From: a virus
IMG/VR virus record: IMGVR_UViG_3300035670_000768
Location: 1-34,351 of that record
Length of the DNA stretch: 34,351 nucleotides
Reading direction: 5' to 3' (one strand)
Part shown: piece by piece, positions 15,104-30,042 of the stretch
Layout: every line of letters begins with the position of its first letter
Numbering within the stretch: position 1 is the stretch's first letter
Program-made: the position numbers and the translations under genes
The notes under the pieces: generated by a model
Seen by the model: the letters and a program-made list of their open reading frames with translations, nothing else
Databases searched by the model: none
What the model was told of the DNA's origin: nothing

Positions 15104-15699
15104 GGACCATCTCGGCCGCAGCACTGGCCGCCCTCACCGGCTCGGTGGTTCGGCCCTTTTATCTGGTCAGTATCGAGCTAACATCGAGCACGCTTTACCT
15201 CTCGACTCTGGGCTTTAACGTCACATGGGACGGTCACACCTGGCTTGGAAACGGGTTTATCAAAGACCCCGGTGCAATTCGCGAGACCGGGGATCTCACC
15301 GCTGAGGGGATGGAGGTGCAGCTCTGTGGAGAGCCGAGCGCCCTGGTGAGCATCCACCTGCAGAGCGTTGAGCAGAATAAGGCCGCGAAGGTCTATCTCG
15401 GATTTCTTTCGGCCGCGCAAGCGGTGATCGCCGATCCGATCCTGATCTTCTCTGGAGTCGTGGACAACTCAAAGCTCGTCGACGCGGCCGACACGGCGAC
15501 GCTGACGTTTTCCCTGGAGAACGATCTGGCGGATCTGGACCGGCCGAACGACCTCCGCTACAACCACGAATCGCAAAAGTCCTTGTATGCGCTCGATCTC
15601 TTCTTTGAATACGTTGAGCAGCTCCAAAACGCCCATTTCTACTGGGGCAAGAAGAAGCGAAAGAACCCGAAGAAAAATAAGAAAAAGGGTTCCGAATGA
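15100..15699 (+). CDS. Tail tip hub-associated protein (DUF2163-like)
   Basis: The 199-residue product shows a tip-protein pattern: LVSIELTSSTLYLSTLGFNV, then GDLTAEGMEVQLCGEPSAL, KVYLGFLSAAQAVIADPI and FSGVVDNSKL. The C-terminal FEYVEQLQNAHFYWG is also typical of proteins next to the J-like protein. The last 20 residues are almost all Lys/Arg/Asn (KKKRKNPKKNKKK), unusual for a structural protein and perhaps a contact with DNA or an acidic partner. It overlaps its neighbours by four bases on both sides. Confidence 0.75.
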   Translation: MRTISAAALAALTGSVVRPFYLVSIELTSSTLYLSTLGFNVTWDGHTWLGNGFIKDPGAIRETGDLTAEGMEVQLCGEPSALVSIHLQSVEQNKAAKVYLGFLSAAQAVIADPILIFSGVVDNSKLVDAADTATLTFSLENDLADLDRPNDLRYNHESQKSLYALDLFFEYVEQLQNAHFYWGKKKRKNPKKNKKKGSE

Positions 15700-18600
15700 C
15701 CGAACGGAAGGCACCCATCATATCCCGGCCGGTATCGGATGCGCCCTGGTCGATCAAAGACGTGCGAAAACCCGAGGCGATCGAGTGGCTCAAGGAGCAT
15801 CGCCCAAATCTCAAAAAATATTCAACGAAGGTAATTAGGCGCACCCGCCGCAAGCTTTCACGCCGAGACTGGAAAAAGTCGCTGCCGCGTGGACGCGATG
15901 AGACCATTTCTGCATCTGACATCAGCCGCGACATCATCTATGGTGAGGTTCGGGTCGGTGGAACGATAAACTTTCTCCATGTTAAGAAAGCCCATAAGGC
16001 TTGGTATCACCATATTTTCTGTATCGCGGGCCATGAGATTGACTCGGTCCAAAAAATGTACATCGACGGGATCGAGATTCAGTTTGCCAGCTCTGGCGGA
16101 AGCATTTACGGATGGGCAACTGGCCCGACGGGAGAGGAGCCCGGCACCAAGGAGTCCGACACGGAAAGGGACTTTACCAACCGGGTCTTTGTTAAGGTGG
16201 TCCATGGCGCCTCGGACCAGCTGGCCGACGGTGAGATCCTGGCTCAGCTTGAATACATCCCTGACGGAGAGAGCGACGTTGTGTGGAGCGAATCGCATCG
16301 CGGCCGCGGCGTGGCATATGTGTATGTCATTTTCAACTGGAGTGCGGCGGCCTTCGGAGAAGGCGACAACGAGGTGGAGTTCCTCGTCCGTGGTAAGAAG
16401 GTTTACGACCCGCGAGATGCGTCTACAGCATGGAGCCAGAACGCCGCGCTCTGCATCGCGGATTATTTGACCGACACGAGTTATGGGAAAAAGATCCCCT
16501 GGGCCAAGATTGACACCGCCGATGCCTCCGGCGGGCTCCATTGGGCCGCGGACGTGTGCGACCAGTCCGTCTCGATCGTCGGCGGGAGCGAGGCGCGGTT
16601 TGCGCTGAACGGGAAGACCGATCGATCTCAGTCTCCGCGGCAGATTCTTGAGGCAATGGTCACGGCGTTTGCTGGCACAATCGCGCCCATCGAGGGCAAG
16701 TGGAAGTTTTTTCCCGGCTGCTGGCGCACCCCGGTGTCGGTCGAGCTTACCGAACAGGACCTCCGCGGTCCTATCACCATTGAGAGCCTCATCTCAAAAA
16801 GCGAAACCTTCAACGCCATTCGCGGAACCTTTGTCGACGCCGCCAACAATTACGAGGAGACGGACTTTCCTTCCATCAACCTGGCCGGCGTCGGCGATGA
16901 GGTGATGTGGGAGGATATTCAGCTGCCATTTACGACATCAAGCACGACGGCGCAGCGCATCGCGCGCATCTATTTGGCCGAGGCGATCCGGTCGGCCACA
17001 ATCACCGCGCCGTTTTCATTGAAAGCCCTGCAGCTTACTTACGGCGATATTCCCACCGTTACCATGAGCCGGTATGGATTCTCGGCGAGCACCTATCAAG
17101 TTGAGGATTTCGATTTCGGCCTCGACAACCTGGAGCCGATCATCAATTTGGTGTTGCGCGCAATTGACGCGAACGCCTACGCCGACACGACCGAGCAGGC
17201 GGCGCATGAGGCGCGGGTCACGATACTTCCCAGCCCGTCATCAGCAACGAACCCCACGGGCTTGACACTTGCCTCCGGCACCGATCACCTTGACATTCGC
17301 GCGGACGGAACAATCTTCTCACGCATCTATGCCGAGTGGACCGCGCCGGACGATCCCTTCGTCACCGACGGCGGGCATATTGAAGTGCAGCGAAAGAAGA
17401 GTACGTCCAGCACCTGGACGGGTCAGACCCTCCTGCCCGGTGACACCACGCATGTTTACATTCTCGACGTTCTCGACGGCGTGAATTATGACGTCCGCAT
17501 CCGGTCGATCAACGCTCTAGGGAAGGCGTCTGCCACTTGGCTCACCGAGTCGAACCATAATGTCATAGGCAAGACCGCGCCGCCCGCCGACGTGGCATCA
17601 ATCGACGTGGCATCTGACGAGTACGGGATCAATATCGTGTGGGACGCCGTGGACGACCTCGACCTTAAACACTATGAGCTCCGCTACGGCGGCAGCGCCT
17701 GGGGAGACTCTACGCTGATCACGCGCGTGAAGGGCACGGCCTACACCTGGGCACGCAAAACGGCGGGCTCCTACACGTTCCGCATCAAAGCGGTGGACAC
17801 GAGCAACAACTACTCAACCAACGAGACGACCGACACGCTGACCATCTCGGGGCCGAGCACGCCGACCCTCACTCTCACGATTGAGGGTGAGGACGTGCGC
17901 ATCTCATGGCCCGCCAGCACGGGCACGCACGCCATTAAGGAGTATGAGATCCGTTACGGCTCGACCTGGGCGGGCGGCACCTCAATCGGGCGGTTTAACA
18001 CGCTCTCGCACAAACGCAAGGTCGATTGGAGCGGGTCGCGCGTCTGGTGGGTGGCGGCGTATGACGTGGCGGGGAACGTGAGTACGGCAGGCTCCGAGGA
18101 CCTCAACATTGTCGTGCCGGGCCAGGTGGCGTCCCTGACCAGCACGCAGGTGGACAATAACGTGCTCATCGACTGGGAGGTGCCGGCGACCGGGACGCTG
18201 CCTGTTGTGAAATACCAGTGCTACAAAGGCGCGACGTTTGCCGGCGCGACCAGCATCGGCTCGGTGGACGGCACCTTTAAGCCGCATTTTGAGCAGCTGG
18301 GCGGCGCCTATACCTACTGGGTCCGTGCGGTCGATTCGGCCGGAAACGCGGGCAGCGAGCGGAGCATCAGCCTAAACGTCCAGCACCCGCCCGATTTTAT
18401 CCTGCGGGCGGATGACTACATCACGACCACCAGCGGTGACACCGAAACCAACATCATGACGTCCAACGAAAACGCGGACCTCACCACGCGGCAAATTTAC
18501 GCCAATACCACTCGCGGGGAGACGTGGACGACGCATTTTACAAATAATTCGTGGACCTGCATCCAGGACGCCATTGACGCGAGTTATACCCAGTGGCTGC

Positions 18601-19175
18601 AACCAGCACCGACCACCGGCGTGTTTGAGGAGGCGGTGGATCTTGGCGCGGTCATGCCAGGAAGCCTCATCAGTGTCACCTGGGCCAAGAGCGACCTGGT
18701 AGCCGGTATTACTGTTACGCCGCGGATTTATTACAAAAAACTGGTCGGTGATGCATGGACGGCGGGCACGGATGGTCTATCGGAACTTTACGCCGTCGAG
18801 TTTCAGTACATCAAGGTAAAGCTCACCTTCACCGCCGCGACTGACAAGGCGCAGGCCATTATCACGGACGTGCATTACCGGGTGACTGTGAAAAAACAGA
18901 CCGACAGCGGCGTCGTCTCTGTCACGGCGACCGGCGGGACGGCTGTGACGTTCAATCTGGATTTTTTGGATGTGGAGAGTGTTGTGGCAACGCCGCAACT
19001 CGTGGGGTCGGGGACGGTTCGCGCAAAATTCGCGATTGTGGATTTTACCGATGTGCCCAATCCGACCGGATTTGTCCTATACCTTTTTGACAAAGACGGC
19101 GCGGAGGTGAGCGGAGGAAATTTACCCGTGAGCGTGAGATGGACTGCCGAAGGCGTTGTCGACGTGGTAACATGA
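15696..19175 (+). CDS. J-like central tail fibre / host-specificity protein with four FN3-like modules
   Basis: The 1159-residue product opens with a basic region (IRRTRRKLSRRDWKK), then the tip domain of J-type proteins: IIYGEVRVGGTINFL, CIAGHEIDSVQKMYIDG and a later CDQSVSIVGGSE. From residue 515 to about 900 four fibronectin-type III-like modules follow, with repeated motifs YDVRIRSINALG, YTFRIKAVDTSNN, VWWVAAYDVAGN and YTYWVRAVDSAGN. The C-terminal 250 residues are beta-rich and likely to be the exposed tip. It forms the central fibre under the tail and recognises the host surface. Start ATG 15696 overlaps the upstream stop. Confidence 0.9.
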   Translation: MTERKAPIISRPVSDAPWSIKDVRKPEAIEWLKEHRPNLKKYSTKVIRRTRRKLSRRDWKKSLPRGRDETISASDISRDIIYGEVRVGGTINFLHVKKAHKAWYHHIFCIAGHEIDSVQKMYIDGIEIQFASSGGSIYGWATGPTGEEPGTKESDTERDFTNRVFVKVVHGASDQLADGEILAQLEYIPDGESDVVWSESHRGRGVAYVYVIFNWSAAAFGEGDNEVEFLVRGKKVYDPRDASTAWSQNAALCIADYLTDTSYGKKIPWAKIDTADASGGLHWAADVCDQSVSIVGGSEARFALNGKTDRSQSPRQILEAMVTAFAGTIAPIEGKWKFFPGCWRTPVSVELTEQDLRGPITIESLISKSETFNAIRGTFVDAANNYEETDFPSINLAGVGDEVMWEDIQLPFTTSSTTAQRIARIYLAEAIRSATITAPFSLKALQLTYGDIPTVTMSRYGFSASTYQVEDFDFGLDNLEPIINLVLRAIDANAYADTTEQAAHEARVTILPSPSSATNPTGLTLASGTDHLDIRADGTIFSRIYAEWTAPDDPFVTDGGHIEVQRKKSTSSTWTGQTLLPGDTTHVYILDVLDGVNYDVRIRSINALGKASATWLTESNHNVIGKTAPPADVASIDVASDEYGINIVWDAVDDLDLKHYELRYGGSAWGDSTLITRVKGTAYTWARKTAGSYTFRIKAVDTSNNYSTNETTDTLTISGPSTPTLTLTIEGEDVRISWPASTGTHAIKEYEIRYGSTWAGGTSIGRFNTLSHKRKVDWSGSRVWWVAAYDVAGNVSTAGSEDLNIVVPGQVASLTSTQVDNNVLIDWEVPATGTLPVVKYQCYKGATFAGATSIGSVDGTFKPHFEQLGGAYTYWVRAVDSAGNAGSERSISLNVQHPPDFILRADDYITTTSGDTETNIMTSNENADLTTRQIYANTTRGETWTTHFTNNSWTCIQDAIDASYTQWLQPAPTTGVFEEAVDLGAVMPGSLISVTWAKSDLVAGITVTPRIYYKKLVGDAWTAGTDGLSELYAVEFQYIKVKLTFTAATDKAQAIITDVHYRVTVKKQTDSGVVSVTATGGTAVTFNLDFLDVESVVATPQLVGSGTVRAKFAIVDFTDVPNPTGFVLYLFDKDGAEVSGGNLPVSVRWTAEGVVDVVT

Positions 19176-19188
19176 GAAAGGAGCAATT

Positions 19189-20271
19189 ATGACTGCTGTG
19201 AATTTTTCCAATCCGACGAACTCAACCGCGTACGCGACCGTTTTGGGCGAAATCCGCGAGGCGATCTCGCACGTCGGACAGATGACCTTTACGTCCGACA
19301 CGAACATTCCGGCGGGCACCGTTCGCCGAAACGGGGCTGCTCTGGAGTACTATGTGAGCGGCTCCACCTGGACTCAGTTTCTTGGCGCCGCGCAGATCGA
19401 TCACAACTCGCTGCTGAATTACGATGCCAACAAGCACGCCGACAAGACCGGGACCGTGACGGTAAGCGGTGCGTGGACTTTTAACGCGGCGAAATTTGCG
19501 GCAGATGCGGTTGTGACTGATTTGAACTGGTACATTTTGGGGGCCACTTCCGATGGGACCGATAACGGGCTGATCGGGATCTGCCCTGGAGGGGCCTATG
19601 CTTATACGAGGGGAGCGTGCCTGAGACTTTTTGGAAATGAGTATACAGGGTACGAGGGGAGGGTCGAGCTGTTCGCCGGGACTGACTCGGATGATGGGCA
19701 GATCCTATTCGGCACACAGGGCGCTATCCGGGCGATAATCGACTATAACGGCGGCTGGCAGATTTTTGATGTGACCTCGGTGCAAACCCCGTCAACCAAT
19801 GGGGTCAATATCCATTCAGATACGGGAGTGCTCCGGGTTAGAAACGACGCGGGAGATGATTGGGCGCTGGTGGGGGCTGCCTTTTACACCATTGAATCAT
19901 CGAGCAATCAGACCAGGACCACGGCAAACACTAGCTGGTATGACATGAGCAGCAGCAGTGTCAGCGTCACAGATGTGCTAAGTGGTGACACGATCATGGC
20001 CTGGGCCACGGTGCATTTGTACAATGACACAGCCCCGACCAGTGAAATCCGGGCGCGGATCGCGATTAGTACAGATTACGGCCAGGGTGTGCGATTTGAA
20101 GACATCGGCACATTGCAGCAGGGTATTTCCCTGACGCCGATCCACAAAGCCACCGGGCTGACCGGCACCGTGACCGTGAAACTGCAATGGTGCACACCTG
20201 ACACTCCTGGTGACACGATTGAAAGCGACCAATTCCAGATGTTTGTCTGTCACATCAGAAGGACAAAATGA
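19189..20271 (+). CDS. Tail fibre-like protein
   Basis: The 360-residue product is rich in Gly, Thr, Ser and Asn. N-terminal FSNPTNSTAYATVLGEIREA is followed by a DTNIPAGTVRRNGAALEYYV region and NSLLNYDANKHADKTGTVTV, a motif often seen in phage fibres. The C-terminal 140 residues alternate polar and hydrophobic residues like a trimeric beta-structured head. AAAGGAG precedes the ATG by six bases. It follows the J-like gene, so it is probably attached to the tip. The receptor is unknown. Confidence 0.75.
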   Translation: MTAVNFSNPTNSTAYATVLGEIREAISHVGQMTFTSDTNIPAGTVRRNGAALEYYVSGSTWTQFLGAAQIDHNSLLNYDANKHADKTGTVTVSGAWTFNAAKFAADAVVTDLNWYILGATSDGTDNGLIGICPGGAYAYTRGACLRLFGNEYTGYEGRVELFAGTDSDDGQILFGTQGAIRAIIDYNGGWQIFDVTSVQTPSTNGVNIHSDTGVLRVRNDAGDDWALVGAAFYTIESSSNQTRTTANTSWYDMSSSSVSVTDVLSGDTIMAWATVHLYNDTAPTSEIRARIAISTDYGQGVRFEDIGTLQQGISLTPIHKATGLTGTVTVKLQWCTPDTPGDTIESDQFQMFVCHIRRTK

Positions 20272-20567
20272 AAACCGAGACGATTGCCGTCGAAACCTCC
20301 GCTGGCGTTAATGCCGCACAGTTAGCTGCTGAGTTGCAGCAGCTCTATCCGGGCACGTCTATCGCCCTCATCTGCGATGAGGCGCGGCGGGTCAAGGAGG
20401 TGCAGCTCGATGTGAGTGACACGACCGTGCTGGACGAAAAGGCCGTGCGGGACATTGTGAAGGCGCACGTACCGCAGCCGCTGCCGCCGCGCGTCACGCT
20501 GCACGACCTGGCGGCGAGGCTTTCGGTGGTTGAGGGGGAGATTCTCAAACTTAAAGGGGAGAAGTAG
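20268..20567 (+). CDS. Small protein of unknown function, tail region
   Basis: The 99-residue product is acidic and mixed alpha/beta. An N-terminal ETIAVETSAGVNAAQLAAEL part and a C-terminal helix (LHDLAARLSVVEGEILKLKG) with coiled-coil spacing are visible. No known family is recognised. Its ATG overlaps the fibre gene stop by four bases, and it is followed by another small gene, so it is probably co-translated with the fibre. A fibre-attachment or chaperone role is possible but not shown. Confidence 0.65.
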   Translation: MKTETIAVETSAGVNAAQLAAELQQLYPGTSIALICDEARRVKEVQLDVSDTTVLDEKAVRDIVKAHVPQPLPPRVTLHDLAARLSVVEGEILKLKGEK

Positions 20568-20568
20568 C

Positions 20569-20763
20569 ATGACGGACGAACAGAAGGCAGTAGATGAACG
20601 GCTCCACCAGGCGCAGCAGCTGCTAAGCCAGACGCGCCTGCCGGGGGCGGGCGCGGGCGAGCTGATGCAAATCTGCATCCACTTGCAGGCGGTAGGCGTG
20701 ACGATCCAGCAGGCGCGGGACCTGCTCGCGGGGAAGCCGCCAGGCGGGGCGCCGCCGAAATAG
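20569..20763 (+). CDS. Small helical protein of unknown function
   Basis: The 64-residue product (MTDEQKAVDERLHQAQQLL...) is largely helical with a Gly/Pro-rich end (GKPPGGAPPK). AAGGGGAG lies upstream and the ATG follows the previous stop by one base. No family is recognised. Confidence 0.6.
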   Translation: MTDEQKAVDERLHQAQQLLSQTRLPGAGAGELMQICIHLQAVGVTIQQARDLLAGKPPGGAPPK

Positions 20764-20768
20764 ATTTA

Positions 20769-20811
20769 GTTCCGCCAATGGGGGCGGAGCAGAACGGGCC
20801 GCCTCGGCGGC
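20769..20811 (+). terminator. Two tandem hairpins, possible terminator
   Basis: TCCGCC (20771-20776) pairs with GGCGGA (20783-20788), extendable to eight pairs. GCCGC (20798-20802) pairs with GCGGC (20807-20811) around CTCG. TTTATTT follows a few bases later. The pair fills the 74-nt gap before the next gene and may reduce read-through. Confidence 0.4.
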
Positions 20812-20837
20812 TGCGGTTTATTTGGTAAGGAGACATT

Positions 20838-21275
20838 ATGGCGACTGACACCATCATTTCCAACGCCGCAGCTATTGCGGCGTGCGACGCGATTGTTGAC
20901 CTGCTGGACGCGGGAAGCGCAGCAGGGCATCTCAAAATCTACTCCGCGGGCAGCGGTGTGCCAGCGGACGTGGATACCGCCATCACCGACCAGGTGCTGC
21001 TGGCGGACCTCACGCTGAGTGACCCTGCCTTTGGCGGTGCGGCGGATAACACCGGAAAGGCGACCGCGACGGCAAGCTCAATCACTGCAGACTCGAGCGC
21101 AAACGCCTCGGGCACGGCGGCCTTTTTCCGCGCCGAAGATAGCAACGGCGTGGCCCGGATTCAGGGGACGGTCGGCACTTCCGACTGCGATCTGAACCTG
21201 AACTCCGTGGCCATTTCCAGCGGTGCGCAGGTGAGCATCACATCCTGGACCTTCTCGGTGCCGGAACAGGTATAA
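20838..21275 (+). CDS. Phage structural-type protein of unknown role
   Basis: The 145-residue product begins with a short helix (ISNAAAIAACDAIVDLLDAG), then GHLKIYSAGSGVPADVD, ADLTLSDPAFGGA and an Ala/Ser/Thr-rich beta stretch. Proteins with this layout occur as unassigned phage genes near tail or head loci, in my recollection. AAGGAGA lies before the ATG. The beta-rich C-terminal half (VRIQGTVGTS-like strands) suggests a virion surface component. Function is not known. Confidence 0.65.
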   Translation: MATDTIISNAAAIAACDAIVDLLDAGSAAGHLKIYSAGSGVPADVDTAITDQVLLADLTLSDPAFGGAADNTGKATATASSITADSSANASGTAAFFRAEDSNGVARIQGTVGTSDCDLNLNSVAISSGAQVSITSWTFSVPEQV

Positions 21276-21280
21276 CCTAA

Positions 21281-21314
21281 CCTGCATGGCGGTGCGCGGG
21301 TGCCGCCATGCAGG
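21281..21314 (+). repeat. 12-bp perfect hairpin between two structural-type genes
   Basis: CCTGCATGGCGG (21281-21292) and CCGCCATGCAGG (21303-21314) form a perfect 12-bp stem with a 10-nt loop. GGAGGG for the next gene follows at 21320. There is no T-run, so an mRNA-processing or translation-control role is as likely as termination. Confidence 0.6.
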
Positions 21315-21331
21315 GCTTTGGAGGGCGTAAG

Positions 21332-21823
21332 ATGGCTGATAACATTGCCGTGACGCCGGGCAGCGGCGCAACGATCGCGACCGACGAGGTGACGCGCAAC
21401 GCCGCGTCCGAGCATCAGCAGATTGTGAAACTGTCACTCGGGGCAGAGGGCGCATTTGACATGCTACTGGACTCCGGTCAGCAGACCTCGGCCAATTCGC
21501 TCCCCGTGGTACTGCCATCCGACCAGATTGTGGCAATGCAGCCTACGCGGGGCGGGACGGCGGCGGTCACGGCGGTTGCGGCGTCTGGGTCGAGCACGAC
21601 GTTGCTATCCGCTGAGTCCGATCGACTGGGCGCTTCAATCTTTAATGACGCCGATCAGGCATGTTTTGTAAAGTTTGGCGCAACGGCAAGCAGCACCAGC
21701 TTCACGGTCAAGATCGCGGTGAACGGCTATTTCGAGTTTCCGCAGCCGGTCTATACCGGCGTGGTAGATGCCATCTGGGAGAACTCACCGTCAGGGAACG
21801 CACGGATCACCGAGTTGACATAG
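21332..21823 (+). CDS. Beta-rich phage protein of unknown role
   Basis: The 163-residue product begins MADNIAVTPGSGATIATDEV, continues with QIVKLSLGAEGAFDMLLDSG, LPVVLPSDQ and a C-terminal FTVKIAVNGYFEFPQPVYTG and ends GNARITELT. The layout resembles small virion proteins from phage structural regions, but no family is certain. The ATG at 21332 is preferred because GGAGGG lies upstream; an in-frame ATG 24 nt earlier sits in the hairpin. A surface or fibre-accessory role is an inference from position. Confidence 0.65.
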   Translation: MADNIAVTPGSGATIATDEVTRNAASEHQQIVKLSLGAEGAFDMLLDSGQQTSANSLPVVLPSDQIVAMQPTRGGTAAVTAVAASGSSTTLLSAESDRLGASIFNDADQACFVKFGATASSTSFTVKIAVNGYFEFPQPVYTGVVDAIWENSPSGNARITELT

Positions 21824-21833
21824 GAGACACGCG

Positions 21834-22268
21834 ATGCCGCTATATAATCCTGAGATCAACTGCTACGACTGCTCCTGTTATGACTGCTCTTGCTACGATT
21901 GCTCAGTCTCTTGTTATGACTGCTCCTGTTACTGCTGCTATGACTGCTCCTCATGTTGTTACGTTGATTGCACGTGCTGTTACACCTGTAACGACTACAC
22001 GACATATTGCTGTTTCGACTGCTCCTGTTATTCAGCCACTCCTGGCGGATCGGGCGGGTCCGTTCAGTATAATAGTAGCAGTTGTTTTGGGGGAGATTCG
22101 TATTTTACCTACGATTGCAGCACTTACTGCCTGGCGGTGGGGTCCGGCTATAATGGCACTATCAATACCAGCCAGTACGTCTCCTGCGGCTGCTGCGGCC
22201 TGAATGCGAATTGCAGCGGATTCAGTTCAATCTGCGTGATGGGCGGGCTGGTCGTGGCGCTGTCATAA
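21834..22268 (+). CDS. Cys/Tyr-rich repeat protein, CYDCS repeats, function unknown
   Basis: The 144-residue product is one of the strangest in the window. By my count about 30 residues are Cys and 18 are Tyr. Residues 10-70 are near-tandem copies of CYDCS with CC pairs. The C-terminal half is Gly/Ser/Asn-rich with more Cys (YVSCGCCGLNANCSGFSSIC) and ends in a hydrophobic GGLVVALS. The repeats use varied synonymous codons (TGC/TGT, TAC/TAT, GAC/GAT, TCC/TCT/TCA), so selection acts on the protein and not on a simple DNA repeat. GGAGA precedes the ATG. No family is recognised. Metal binding, disulphide or tyrosine cross-linking on the virion are possibilities. It is followed by a methyltransferase and a glycosyltransferase. 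Confidence 0.85.
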   Translation: MPLYNPEINCYDCSCYDCSCYDCSVSCYDCSCYCCYDCSSCCYVDCTCCYTCNDYTTYCCFDCSCYSATPGGSGGSVQYNSSSCFGGDSYFTYDCSTYCLAVGSGYNGTINTSQYVSCGCCGLNANCSGFSSICVMGGLVVALS

Positions 22269-22278
22269 AGGGGGCGCG

Positions 22279-22758
22279 ATGAAACGGCTGAGCCTTGGAT
22301 GCGGAGAGGAAGAGCGGGCCGGATTCGTCGGACTAGACAGCGACCCATCCGTCTCCCCTGATGTGGTCTGGGATCTGGAGCAGACACCGCTTCCGTTCGA
22401 GGACGGCGAGTTTGAGCTGGTGCGGGCCTCGCACATTCTGGAGCACGTCCACAACCTCATGCCGTTGATGCAGGAGGTGCGGCGCATCCTGACCCCTGGC
22501 GGCATTTTTGACGTTGCGGTTCCCATGTTCGGCTGCAAGGCGGCTATCATTGATCCCACTCACTGCCGGTATTTTTTGCCGGAGACTTTTTTCATGTTTC
22601 AAGCGGCGCAGCCGGGGCAGCACCCGCCGCATTTTGCTGGACGCGGCTGGTTTGCGGTGCAGTCTCTGGAGGTCCGCAAAATTCGCGGGCCGAACGAGGA
22701 CGAGAAAACGGCGGGGGCGTTTTTCACAGAGATTCGAGCGAGGTTGATTCGGGCGTGA
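22279..22758 (+). CDS. Class I SAM-dependent methyltransferase
   Basis: The 159-residue product opens with motif I, KRLSLGCGEEERAGFVGLD, then DVVWDLEQTPLPFEDGEFEL (motif II region) and SHILEHVHNLMPLMQEV with RRILTPGGIFDVAVP (motif III). That is the small Methyltransf_11-like fold. The substrate is unknown: protein, glycan or small molecule are all possible. The C-terminal part is short, so no separate substrate domain is visible. Its stop overlaps the GTG of the glycosyltransferase by four bases, so the two are translated together. Confidence 0.85.
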   Translation: MKRLSLGCGEEERAGFVGLDSDPSVSPDVVWDLEQTPLPFEDGEFELVRASHILEHVHNLMPLMQEVRRILTPGGIFDVAVPMFGCKAAIIDPTHCRYFLPETFFMFQAAQPGQHPPHFAGRGWFAVQSLEVRKIRGPNEDEKTAGAFFTEIRARLIRA

Positions 22759-23696
22759 ACGATTGCAAACGTGTAGTGCTTAAAGTTGATGGCGGGCTGG
22801 GCAAGAACGTTGCAGCGACCGCGCTGGTGGTAAGCATTAAGGCCAAGTGGAACCTGCCGCTTATCGTCATCGCATCGCACATGGAGCCGTTTTACGGCAA
22901 TCCGCTGGTGGACCGGCTGCACACTTACCGGAACCTCTCGTACCTCTACGCCGATTATTTTGCAGACCGAGCAGTTCAGATCCTCTCTGGCGAGCCCTAT
23001 ATGCACTCATCCTACCTGACCGGCTCTCACATCATTGAGGTCTGGCGGGAGATGTTTGGTCTGCCGACTTGTGACGTGGCGCAGCCGTGTCTGTTCATTG
23101 ACGCCGCCGAGCGGGAGTGGGCGCTCACATACCTAGCCGGGATGAAGATCCAGCCTGAGAAACTTATCCTGCTCCAGTGGCAGGGCGGCGCGGCGCCGCC
23201 CGCGCCTGGTCAGTGTTCGGCGCAGCAGCGGCGCACGCTGCGGCGGGTCACGGCACAAGCCCTGTATGACGGGCTCGTCGGCATGGGGTACGATGTAATC
23301 TCGATGCAGCTTCCCAGCCAGCCGCAGCTTGAGCGGTGCCTGGTGCCGACTGCGGGCCGGGGACAGGATGGGCAGCCGCTCCCGCTCAATCCCCGCCAGG
23401 CCCTCGCGCTGGTGTCGGTGTGCAAGAGTTTCGTCGGCATCGACTCCTTTGTGCAGCACGCGGCGGCCGCATTGGGGAAGCCCGGCATCGTGCTCTGGGG
23501 CGGCACGGACCCCCGAAATTTAGGTTATCCAGAACACAAAAACCTGACAGCAAAAGTTAAATGCGAAACCCCACACTGCGGCAGACCGAACAGTTTCCTG
23601 TTTGACGTAGACGTTTTCGGGCGGCCCTGGTCGTGCCCGGTGGGGGATATGTGTCTGGATTTTGATCCTGACGAGATTTTGGACGAGTTCGCCTGA
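22755..23696 (+). CDS. GT9/heptosyltransferase-like glycosyltransferase
   Basis: The 313-residue product has an N-terminal VVLKVDGGLGKNVAATALV, like the donor-fold start of GT-B heptosyltransferases, and a C-terminal CKSFVGIDSFVQHAAAALGKPGIVLWGG, the conserved acceptor/nucleotide box of family GT9. Residues from about 275 on carry a Cys cluster (KCETPHCG, CPVGDMC) that may bind metal. The family transfers heptose or related sugars from nucleotide donors. The substrate here is unknown. It is coupled to the methyltransferase upstream, and its stop overlaps the start of the long repeat protein (TGATG). Confidence 0.85.
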   Translation: MNDCKRVVLKVDGGLGKNVAATALVVSIKAKWNLPLIVIASHMEPFYGNPLVDRLHTYRNLSYLYADYFADRAVQILSGEPYMHSSYLTGSHIIEVWREMFGLPTCDVAQPCLFIDAAEREWALTYLAGMKIQPEKLILLQWQGGAAPPAPGQCSAQQRRTLRRVTAQALYDGLVGMGYDVISMQLPSQPQLERCLVPTAGRGQDGQPLPLNPRQALALVSVCKSFVGIDSFVQHAAAALGKPGIVLWGGTDPRNLGYPEHKNLTAKVKCETPHCGRPNSFLFDVDVFGRPWSCPVGDMCLDFDPDEILDEFA

Positions 23697-26281
23697 TGCT
23701 GATATTTTTCTGGAATACGGAGGCGACGGGGGCTATCACGGGCACCGCGGTGCAAACGTGCGCACCTGCCTCCCAGGCGGCGGCTGGGTCCGAGTTATTT
23801 ACGGGGTCGGCTGTTCAGGGCCAGGTCGCGGCCCAGCAGCTCGGCGCCGGCGTCGAGATATTTCAGGGCACGGCAGCGCAAACAGCCGCCCCCTGCTCCC
23901 AGCAGGCGGGAGGGGCGCAGGGTTTTGTCGGCTCCTCCGCCCAGCTTCACCCGCCGGCGAGTCAATCGGCGGCCGGCGTCGAGGTGTTCGTCGGTGCCGC
24001 CGCCCAGCAGATAGCGCCCTGCACGCAGGCGGCGGCGGGCCAGGCGGCGGGCGCCCCTGTTACCGGCACGTCCGTACAGCTCGCGGCTCCGTGCTCTCAG
24101 GCGGCGAGCGGTATCGAACTCTTTGCCAGCGCGGCAGTCCAGCAGTCTGCGCCCGCGAGTCAGGCGGCCACAGGGGGGCAGGGGTACGCGGGGACGGCGG
24201 CGCAGACCGTCCCGGCCGCCAGCCAGGCGGCGAGTGGCGTAGAGACCTTCCTTAGCGTAGCAGCTCAACAAGCCCAGCCTGCAAGTCAGGCAGCTGCTGG
24301 CGCACTCGGGCTTGCCGGCGCGGCGGCCCAAACGCTCGCACCAGCAGTGCAGGCCGGCTCTGGGCTTGAGACGTTTCTCAGCAGCTCGGCTCAGCAGTCT
24401 CAGCCAGCGCAGCAGTCGGTCGGCGGGGGCCTTGGCATCAGCGGGGCGGCCGACCAGGCACTGGCAGCCGCGGCTCAGGCGGCGTCTGCTCTTGAGACTT
24501 TTATCGGCCAGGCCGCGCAGGTGCTCGCGGCAGCCGCGCAGTCCGCCTCGGGCGGGGTCGGCATCACGGGCACCGCCTCCCAGACCGTCGCCGAATCCAC
24601 GCAAAGCGCCGCGGGCCTGCTCACGTTCCTCGGGGCGGTCGAGCAGCCCGCGAGCGCGGCGGCTCAGGCGGCAGAGGGGGCAGAGAGTTTTATCGGGCAG
24701 ATCGCGCAGCAGGCACAGCCGGCGGCTCAGGCTGCAAGCGGCGGGACAGGCATTGTTGGCACCGCCTCCCAAAGCCTCCCGGCCTGCACGCAGGCGGCGG
24801 AAGGGCTCGAGGTATTCCTCGGGGAGGCAGCTCAGGCGGCAGTTCCCTGCGCACAAGCCGGCGCCGGCGCCCAGATATTTACGGGGGTGGCCGCTCAGAC
24901 GCTCGCTGCATGTTCTCAGTCGGCTGCCGGTGGGACGGGGGTCATTGGCGTAGCAGTCCAGACCTCTGCCTCGGCGCACCAGGCGGCGGACGGGATTGAG
25001 AGCTTTGTCGGCAGCTCCTCACAGCTTCATACGGCAGCCGGCCAGGCGGCGGCGGGGGAGCTTGCTTTCATCGGCCAGGCGGCGCAGCAGACCACCCCCT
25101 GCTCTCAATCGGCCGCCGGTGGGGGCGTACATGTCGGCGCCGCCGCCCAGCAGACCCAGCCCGCGGCTCAGGCCGCCGAGGGCGTGGTCGAACATCTGGG
25201 CAGCGGTGCGCAGACCACAGCGCCGGCCGCCTGCGCAGCCGCCGGCAGTTTGGACTTCATCGGCGCAGCAGCGCAGATCGCCGCGCCGGCCTTCCAGCTC
25301 GCGGTCGGCGAGGGGTTGGGGACGGGGGCGGCAGCACAGATCGCCGCGCCGGCAACTCAGGCCGCCGCGGGCAGCCTCGATTTCATTGGCGCGGCGGCGC
25401 CAACCACCGCCCCCGCGCTGAGTGGGGCGAGTGCTCTGGAGATATTTACCGGGACCATCTCTCAGGACGCCCGGCCCGCGCTCCAGGGAGCCACAGGCGC
25501 ACAGGGATATACGGGCACAGCTGAGCAGACCGCCACACCCGCCAGTCAGGCGGCAGTCGGCGAGGAGGCGTTTATCGGGGCCGCAGCCCAAGAGGGCCAA
25601 GCCGCAAGCCAGGCCGCCGCCGGGGAGGTGGTCGGGACGCTCGCGGGCACGATTGCACAGATCGCCGCGCCTGCCTTCCAGCTCGCAACCGCGCTGGAGA
25701 CGTTCATCGGCCAGGCCGCTCAGGAGCACGTCGTCTGCAGCCAGGCCGCCGTTGCGATGCTGGCGATCACGGGGGCAGCGGCCCAAGAGGCGCAGCCGGC
25801 AGTACAGGCCGGCACAGGAGCGGTCTCATTCGTTGCCTGGGCGGCGCAGACCCTTGCGGCGGCAGAGCAGGCCGGCACGGGCACCGAGACGTTTGTCGGC
25901 ACCATTGCCCAAACATCACCGCCCGCCAGTCAAACCGGCGAGGGCATCGCGTACTCGATGCTGGTGAGCGGGGAAGCGGCGCAGCTCGTCGCAGCCTGCA
26001 CACAGTCGCTTGACGGGCAGGAGTCGTTTGTCGGCACTGCCGCCGAGCAGATCGCCGCCGCGTACCAGGCCGCCGCGGGCGTCTGGTTCTACCCGGTCAC
26101 TAAGGATGTCGCGCTCACCGGCACGTTCACTCTCGACACCGCGCTCACCGGCACCTTTACAACCGACTTCGCGCTGGTCGGAACCTTCACAATCGATTTT
26201 GCACTCACCGGCACTTTCACTCTTGACTCAGCGATGACTGGGACTTTCGTCGCGGAACCAAGCTTAACCGCAACCACATGA
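23696..26281 (+). CDS. 861-residue protein of about 37 tandem 21-residue repeats plus five 10-residue repeats
   Basis: Almost the whole protein consists of about 37 copies of a 21-residue unit with consensus F(I/V/T)GxAAQxxxPAxQAAxGxE. Some units start with I, L, Y or V, so units partly alternate. A last part (from about residue 803) has five copies of a ten-residue unit ALTGTFTxDx. No signal peptide or membrane segment is visible. The period and the small residues suggest an elongated, repetitive beta structure or fibre, but this is an inference. It starts by overlap with the glycosyltransferase, and glycosylation of its many Ser/Thr residues is a possible link. Opposite-strand reading frames here are compositional shadows. 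Confidence 0.85.
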   Translation: MLIFFWNTEATGAITGTAVQTCAPASQAAAGSELFTGSAVQGQVAAQQLGAGVEIFQGTAAQTAAPCSQQAGGAQGFVGSSAQLHPPASQSAAGVEVFVGAAAQQIAPCTQAAAGQAAGAPVTGTSVQLAAPCSQAASGIELFASAAVQQSAPASQAATGGQGYAGTAAQTVPAASQAASGVETFLSVAAQQAQPASQAAAGALGLAGAAAQTLAPAVQAGSGLETFLSSSAQQSQPAQQSVGGGLGISGAADQALAAAAQAASALETFIGQAAQVLAAAAQSASGGVGITGTASQTVAESTQSAAGLLTFLGAVEQPASAAAQAAEGAESFIGQIAQQAQPAAQAASGGTGIVGTASQSLPACTQAAEGLEVFLGEAAQAAVPCAQAGAGAQIFTGVAAQTLAACSQSAAGGTGVIGVAVQTSASAHQAADGIESFVGSSSQLHTAAGQAAAGELAFIGQAAQQTTPCSQSAAGGGVHVGAAAQQTQPAAQAAEGVVEHLGSGAQTTAPAACAAAGSLDFIGAAAQIAAPAFQLAVGEGLGTGAAAQIAAPATQAAAGSLDFIGAAAPTTAPALSGASALEIFTGTISQDARPALQGATGAQGYTGTAEQTATPASQAAVGEEAFIGAAAQEGQAASQAAAGEVVGTLAGTIAQIAAPAFQLATALETFIGQAAQEHVVCSQAAVAMLAITGAAAQEAQPAVQAGTGAVSFVAWAAQTLAAAEQAGTGTETFVGTIAQTSPPASQTGEGIAYSMLVSGEAAQLVAACTQSLDGQESFVGTAAEQIAAAYQAAAGVWFYPVTKDVALTGTFTLDTALTGTFTTDFALVGTFTIDFALTGTFTLDSAMTGTFVAEPSLTATT

Positions 26282-26288
26282 GGACACC

Positions 26289-26630
26289 ATGACAACCGAG
26301 AATCAAGACGTTTCCATCGTACAGGGCGACTCCGTCACCCTGACAGTGACGGTCACCAGCGGCGGGGTCGCCAAGAACCTCACCAGCGCGACGATCAAAT
26401 GGTCCTGCGCCAGGTCTGCGGATGGCTCAGCCGCGCTGAGCAAGACGACGAGCAGCGGCATCACCATCACGAACGCGGCGGGCGGCATCTTTCAGGTCGC
26501 ACTCTCAAAGACCGACACGGCCGCGCTGCTCGGATATTACTATCACGAGGCCGAAGTCACCGACGCGGGCGGAAACGTTAGTACGGTAATGACGGGGCAC
26601 CTCACAGTGACGCAGGACTTGATTGCATAG
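26289..26630 (+). CDS. Small BppU-like beta-sandwich protein
   Basis: The 113-residue product is beta-rich: DVSIVQGDSVTLTVTVTSG, NLTSATIKWSCARS, GIFQVALSKTDTAALLG and YYHEAEVTDAGGNVSTV. The spacing resembles the N-terminal domain of BppU-type baseplate proteins and other phage Ig-like modules. It follows the long repeat protein by eight bases and could be a tail or fibre accessory. The name is by resemblance only. Confidence 0.65.
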   Translation: MTTENQDVSIVQGDSVTLTVTVTSGGVAKNLTSATIKWSCARSADGSAALSKTTSSGITITNAAGGIFQVALSKTDTAALLGYYYHEAEVTDAGGNVSTVMTGHLTVTQDLIA

Positions 26631-29019: not shown

Positions 29020-30042
29020 TCACAGTTTAAGTTTTAAACCGGCATGCTCCGCGAGTGACCGGCGGCGCTTGTCGTAACGGTAGCACATATCGAGTGTGGC
29101 AAAGCGGCCGAACTCCTGAACCTCGTGCGGGTCGACGCCCTGGCGCAGGAGCTCCGTCACTCCGGTCGCCCTCAAGGAATGCGCCGCGAATTTGCTCTCA
29201 TCGAGCCCGACCCGCGCGCAGGCGCGTTTTACTATGCGGTTGATGGTGCTATGCGAGATTGGAGCCAGGTTGGCTCCAGCCCCAAAATGCGAGACGAAAA
29301 GGGGAGAGCGGGGAAGGGCCCCCGCGGCCGCCCGTTCATCGCGCCAGGCCAGCACCGCCTCAGCCGCCCATGAGGGCAGCGGCTGCAGGGGGCTTGTCCC
29401 GTTTTTGGTGGCCCTGAGCCTGAGCGCAGTGACCCCGTCGACCTCCTGCACATCGTCGAGGGTAAGTTTGGCCGCCTCGCTTCGCCGCAAACCGCCGCCG
29501 ACGAGCGCCGAGAGCAGCGCCCGCGCAGAGAGTTCTGGCGCCCCCAGGATGAGCTCCGGCAGCACGCCCGGCGGTAGCGCCCGGGTCGGCCGTTTTGGGG
29601 CCGCCCTGAGGAGAGTGACACCCTCAAAGGGGTTGACGCGGGCGACGCCGGCAGCCTGGGCTATCCGGAAAAACTTCCGGAAAATGAGAAGGCGCTGATT
29701 GGTTGTACCCGAGGCCCGATAATCCACGGCATCTCTCCGCGCGCCGCGCCGGCGCTGACTCCAGGCCTTATAGCGCAGCGCCGCGGTGGCATCCAAGGAA
29801 ATCAGCGCCCGGGCCCCGTCGGCGCATCTCAGAAACGCCTCGAGGTCATGCAGCGCCGCATTGTAGGGCCGTTGATTTTTGTGTGTGCTCACGTAACTAC
29901 GCCAAAGCTCTAGTAAGGGATTTTCGCATATAGAAACTGAGGCTCTCCTTGCCATGATTTCCAAACGCCTTCCCGGCTCCCGCGCCGCCAGGTCCCGGCA
30001 AGCCGGCGCCGCATCCCGGCCGCTTGCGCTCATTATCCACAT
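29020..30042 (-). CDS. Tyrosine recombinase (phage integrase, XerC/D type)
   Basis: The product has up to 340 residues. The N-terminal part (LLELWRSYVSTHKNQRPYN) fits the core-binding SAM-like domain. The catalytic domain has ArgI in ALVGGGLRRSEAAKLTLDD, the Lys hairpin in RATKNGTSPLQPL, H-x-x-R in AAHSLRATGVTELL and the nucleophilic Tyr in CYRYDK. The usual LGH just before the Tyr is FGR, so the second His is replaced by Arg. It inserts and excises the phage genome. No att site can be found by eye. Start is uncertain: ATGs at 30042, 30033 and 29955 are all in frame; 30033 has GAGG nine bases upstream. It reads leftward, next to the rightward regulator. Confidence 0.9.
   Translation of the reverse strand: MWIMSASGRDAAPACRDLAAREPGRRLEIMARRASVSICENPLLELWRSYVSTHKNQRPYNAALHDLEAFLRCADGARALISLDATAALRYKAWSQRRRGARRDAVDYRASGTTNQRLLIFRKFFRIAQAAGVARVNPFEGVTLLRAAPKRPTRALPPGVLPELILGAPELSARALLSALVGGGLRRSEAAKLTLDDVQEVDGVTALRLRATKNGTSPLQPLPSWAAEAVLAWRDERAAAGALPRSPLFVSHFGAGANLAPISHSTINRIVKRACARVGLDESKFAAHSLRATGVTELLRQGVDPHEVQEFGRFATLDMCYRYDKRRRSLAEHAGLKLKL

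Follow-up and report, generated by a model that had tools for sequence, protein, structure and literature searches.

The window analysed here is a virus record of 34,351 nucleotides (IMG/VR record IMGVR_UViG_3300035670_000768, positions 1 to 34,351), and the virus is a temperate siphovirus. Its genes run from an HK97-type capsid and portal through a tape measure (called by length and position), a lambda-J-like central tail tip protein (15696–19175, + strand; phrog_5616 and phrog_31) and a variable cassette to apparent lysis genes and a tyrosine integrase. The last of these, a XerC-like tyrosine recombinase (29020–30042, − strand; E 3e-15), is consistent with a temperate phage. Relatives of the capsid and tail-tip proteins occur in Bradyrhizobium, Caulobacter and Roseobacter phages, from which the hosts can be placed, loosely, among the alphaproteobacteria. 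A search against the defence library returned no match.

The variable cassette (19189–26630) lies between the tail tip and the lysis genes. On the + strand it encodes a member of the virion structural protein family phrog_3758 (20838–21275; E 1e-34), a probable virion appendage protein with the N-terminus MADNIAVTPGSGATIA (the MADNIAVTPG-leader protein; 21308–21823), the Cys/Tyr-rich protein that is the subject of this study (21834–22268), a methyltransferase (Methyltransf_11; 22279–22758) directly 3′ of it, a glycosyltransferase-family-9-like (GT9-like) protein that follows next (22755–23696), and an 861-aa protein of Ala/Gln-rich near-repeats (..AAQ..ASAAQ..) with ALTGTFTLD-type repeats at its end (23696–26281). 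The cassette also holds a gene for a BppU_N-like protein. The 861-aa protein, which has no significant Pfam or PHROG match, is possibly a stalk or fibre. The MADNIAVTPGSGATIA leader is common to otherwise unrelated phage proteins (it fronts differing remainders in L005–L008 as well as in the gene at 21308–21823), and it resembles a docking leader exchanged among virion appendage proteins. The cassette is mosaic: the neighbouring genes are non-syntenic in relatives, and the loci of 37 relatives of the phrog_3758 gene and four relatives of the MADNIAVTPG-leader gene contain no orthologue of the Cys/Tyr-rich protein.

The Cys/Tyr-rich protein, P0001, starts at an ATG and is 144 residues long. A Shine–Dalgarno-like AGGAG (21822–21826, + strand), which partly coincides with the stop codon of the preceding gene, ends 7 nt before the start codon. 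The protein contains 30 Cys (20.8%), 18 Tyr (12.5%), 23 Ser, 10 Asp and 4 Phe, and is devoid of Lys, Arg, His and Trp. The remaining predicted genes in the window average 0.98% Cys, and the binomial probability of at least 30 Cys in 144 residues is ∼1e-30. Thus, the preliminary description of a phage-coded protein with about 30 Cys and 18 Tyr behind a good ribosome site is borne out. A second ORF (21661–22203) overlaps the gene in a different frame; we prefer the CYDCS frame because both the homology module and the third-position bias described below lie in it. In order, P0001 consists of a leader, MPLYNPEIN (residues 1–9; 21834–21860, + strand), a Cys/Tyr/Asp/Ser array (residues 10–66; 21861–22031, + strand), the stretch SATPGGSGGSVQYNSSSCFGGDSYFTYDCSTYCLAV, and a C-terminal tail with a CGCC motif, ending CVMGGLVVALS (residues 103–144; 22140–22265, + strand), for which no relative was found.

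The array packs 22 Cys and 11 Tyr into 57 residues (>30% Cys). It had been described as a run of near-tandem CYDCS units, which is right as to the units and the CC pairs and overstated as to their arrangement: six C[YF]DCS units begin at residues 10, 15, 20, 27, 35 and 60, with spacings of 5, 5, 7, 8 and 25 residues, and the five-residue phase is broken by CC pairs. A regular solenoid is therefore unlikely, as the units are only partly tandem and CC-interrupted. A pentapeptide-repeat (quadrilateral beta-helix) protein was rejected on the same interrupted phase and on the lack of a Pfam match. P0001 has 11 CxxC, seven CxC and five CC pairs, and eight Cys lie outside the array, some of them in CGCC and some at variable module positions. 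Structure prediction performs poorly on the array, with a pLDDT of 31.5 in single-sequence mode and 50 with an alignment.

Is the pattern maintained at the level of protein? Pairwise nucleotide differences among the C[YF]DCS units number 0, 5 and 32 at codon positions 1, 2 and 3, and variable columns make up four of the five third positions and one of the ten others (hypergeometric P = 0.017). Differences that fall almost entirely at third positions indicate selection on the CYDCS reading frame, in agreement with the earlier suggestion that selection on protein keeps the pattern. Such variation, together with the ribosome site and the in-frame homologous module, also rules out an antisense or low-complexity artefact.

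Protein-based scans of viral contigs, genome contigs, phages and plasmids yielded no close relative of the whole protein, and no homologue of the array among the matches listed. DNA-pattern scans for CYDCxCYDC and CYxCxCYxCxC likewise gave no array relative among the matches listed; most of the CYxC-pattern matches listed were either low-complexity repeats in antisense-type readings or short stretches bounded by stops. In the open-licence literature we found no account of a phage protein of this kind.

The preliminary description also held that P0001 matches no family, which stands for the array and the C-terminal tail, both orphans, and fails for residues 69–102 (22038–22139, + strand), which belong to a widespread phage fibre module, PGGS..VQ[YF]N....FGGD..FTYD. 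We make this assignment because the profile score, the alignment, independent matches and a predicted hairpin agree. A PHROGs search gave a non-significant tail-fibre match on residues 69–114, tblastn against phages gave weak matches on the same residues in tail-fibre or hypothetical proteins, and a consensus query then picked up the module in proteins annotated as tail fibres, from cyanophages among others, one of them an S-CBS3 'mtd' protein. A DNA-pattern scan yielded many module carriers, and a profile built from 36 of them scores P0001 at 45.9 bits, against a maximum of 9.3 over 5,000 composition-matched shuffles. Aligned with 25 relatives, P0001 conserves every one of the nine invariant and four near-invariant columns (P, G, V, Q, N, F, GGD and FTYD), and its Cys fall only at variable columns. 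It thereby matches at 13 of 13 such columns the form PGGSxTQVQ[YF]NDxGxFGGDSGFTYDxxTxxLxV of the module found in the S-LBS1 tail fiber protein, S-CBS3 'mtd' and Virus Rctr41k, its own version reading PGGS..VQYN....FGGDSxFTYD...LAV. When 385 genomes from a single alphaproteobacterial class were compared with P0001, the best matches fell on the module stretch in very long ORFs, four of which carry the module by profile. AlphaFold, run with an alignment, predicts a beta-hairpin at residues 91–94/99–102, where the block pLDDT values are 71 and 76, other blocks being below 60. Searched by profile against the PDB, the module gave only chance-level matches, to the hairpin of protein G (E ≥ 0.33), and a scan for the pattern CFGGD..FT gave two matches, both due to chance. 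A second fibre-type repeat, DAGGDGSFTYDSATGxFTYTGPSAxEVRAH, occurs in tandem in many viral contigs (e.g. L311, L323 and L270) and has GGD..FTYD in common with the module.

P0001 is nevertheless no conventional tail fibre. The 43 other carriers sampled are long and Cys-poor (open frames from 178 aa upward, median 532; median 0.14% Cys, maximum 1.5%), whereas P0001 is short, Cys-rich and without a long shaft or receptor domain. A conventional tail fibre has a shaft and a receptor-binding or chaperone region; P0001 has 144 residues and nothing recognizable past residue 102. What appears to be new at this locus is an orphan array and C-terminal tail joined to a known fibre module.

Two other Cys-rich proteins invite comparison. 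A scan for the start MPxYNPxxxC, with which P0001 opens, found a single Cys-rich analogue, a viral protein of 297 aa with 35 Cys that starts MPSYNPAIVCCC and is encoded at L404:1966–2859 (− strand) in a virion-type cassette, with a DUF6734 gene next to it. It shares with P0001 the start pattern, the richness in Cys and the type of cassette; however, the two cannot be aligned past the start (BLASTP E 5.5), and the longer protein has neither the fibre module nor CYDCS units. It matches no Pfam or PHROG family, and a search of the phage collection gave nothing convincing. The second, a planctomycete (Gemmataceae) protein, was met as a minus-strand match at L130:3870–3902; here, a Cys/Tyr/Gly-rich, CYxC-type array precedes a small domain, as in P0001, but the array is Gly-rich and without CYDCS, the domain is TIGR03000, and the protein is cellular rather than of phage origin. 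Membership of P0001 in the TIGR03000 group was rejected, as P0001 has no NCBIfam match and the planctomycete protein does. We regard both proteins as analogues, neither being a relative of P0001.

What, then, might such a protein do? The reading that we tentatively prefer, at somewhat less than an even chance, is that P0001 is a small virion appendage protein, composed of fibre module and Cys/Tyr array, whose cysteines form disulphides after lysis. P0001 would be a minimal polypeptide of the tail-fibre type, its short leader and short tail flanking the PGGS/VQYN/FGGD/FTYD beta-hairpin module, and the 57-residue array would have arisen in it by insertion or expansion. The module would dock the protein to the fibre or tail-tip complex, or permit oligomerization within it, and the array would be kept reduced in the host cytoplasm. 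On lysis, the oxidizing surroundings would drive the formation of dense intra- and inter-chain disulphides, with packing of the Tyr residues, and the outcome would be a stalk or knob that is hard and resists proteases, in the style of keratin-associated proteins. We infer the location in the virion from the module and the neighbourhood; the gene sits among tail-tip, phrog_3758 virion and BppU_N-like genes and 5′ of the lysis genes, so that the virion role first suggested for the protein is plausible, with metal binding, disulphide packing and Tyr cross-linking as candidate chemistries. Against this, the module is short (34 aa), and the proteins that carry it vary in location, mostly unproven. 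The disulphide mechanism itself we hold with moderate confidence, and the oligomerization and disulphide state are presumed. Joint enrichment in Cys and Tyr without basic residues or His resembles cross-linked structural proteins, by analogy. For example, Cys can exceed 21% in lamprey KRTAP-like proteins, where it is considered, together with Tyr, to promote interactions between molecules (PMC12101200). Like keratin-associated and KRTAP-like proteins, P0001 is small, high in Cys and Tyr, and without a specific fold (PMC12101200); the KRTAP-like proteins are eukaryotic, Gly-rich and non-homologous to P0001, and the likeness is compositional only. Against the disulphide reading, the array has no homologue among the matches listed and no predicted structure, so extreme a Cys content would have to be protected in some way while the protein is in the reducing cytoplasm, and the CxxC, CxC and CC spacings also suit metal thiolate clusters. 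More boldly, P0001 may represent a new phage virion element, a self-hardening fibre part that is docked by a standard module and whose array is cross-linked by oxidation, or loaded with metal, after release; this we consider speculative and rather unlikely.

The main rival, a serious one that we still judge to be on the unlikely side, is an appendage loaded with metal. The thiolates of the CxxC, CxC and CC motifs, whose numbers are given above, and the oxygens of Asp and Tyr would bind Zn, Cu, Cd or an Fe–S cluster, and the metal would stabilize a fibre-linked protein or be delivered to a host receptor, a role already suggested for HxH iron sites elsewhere among tail fibres. Metallothioneins are almost devoid of aromatic residues. 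P0001 resembles them in these motifs and in the Cys content of its array, but differs in its many aromatics (18 Tyr and 4 Phe), in its fusion to a fibre module and in having no Lys or Arg, the residues that in classical metallothioneins balance thiolate clusters. No metallothionein profile matched it in searches of Pfam (to E 1) and NCBIfam (to E 10). Tail fibres that hold metal are nevertheless known: the T4 fibre tip contains seven irons, and phage R22Y has six predicted HxH sites (PMC11705849). Like these fibres (T4 gp37 type; phage R22Y), P0001 is fibre-linked with candidate metal sites, but it has no His, which removes the known HxH mechanism and the candidate identity of an HxH iron-binding tail fibre. 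A multihaem c-type cytochrome was rejected on the same grounds, CxxCH being impossible.

Could the array instead be a low-complexity expansion, neutral or under weak selection, in an accessory gene that evolves fast and is perhaps confined to this lineage, its Cys having no specific role? Slippage or duplication typically leaves near-tandem units, the array has no homologue among the matches listed in the collections searched, and the cassette is mosaic, with neighbouring genes that are non-syntenic in relatives. We nonetheless consider it improbable, since the near-restriction of unit divergence to third positions indicates selection at the protein level, the frame is intact, and eight Cys lie beyond the array.

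More doubtful still, and in our view very improbable, is a scheme in which the array is the substrate of the adjacent methyltransferase and GT9-like enzyme, which would methylate or glycosylate its Ser, Tyr or Cys residues and so yield a RiPP-like product or a modified decoration of the surface. Both enzyme genes lie immediately 3′ and in the same direction (22279–23696), which is a matter of adjacency only, and the Cys-rich virion-cassette gene of L404 is likewise followed by a gene, that for DUF6734, which might encode an enzyme. However, DUF6734 has no assigned function and these are two cases only; phage tail regions often carry enzyme genes of this sort, whose products may act on something else, and no dedicated RiPP enzyme is seen in the window. 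Finally, an unpackaged, intracellular metallothionein-like protein or redox buffer made late in infection would account for the richness in Cys, yet the fibre module and the position in a virion-appendage cassette speak against it, and we give it hardly any credence.

As a fibre-module protein with so much Cys and Tyr, P0001 would represent a compact, testable case of phage redox or metal chemistry that builds or arms the virion exterior. It could also serve as a small tag, encoded genetically, for cross-linking or metal binding. Should the array turn out to be inert, it calls for caution over low-complexity expansion in accessory fibre genes. With neither Lys nor Arg in its sequence, P0001 is invisible to trypsin.
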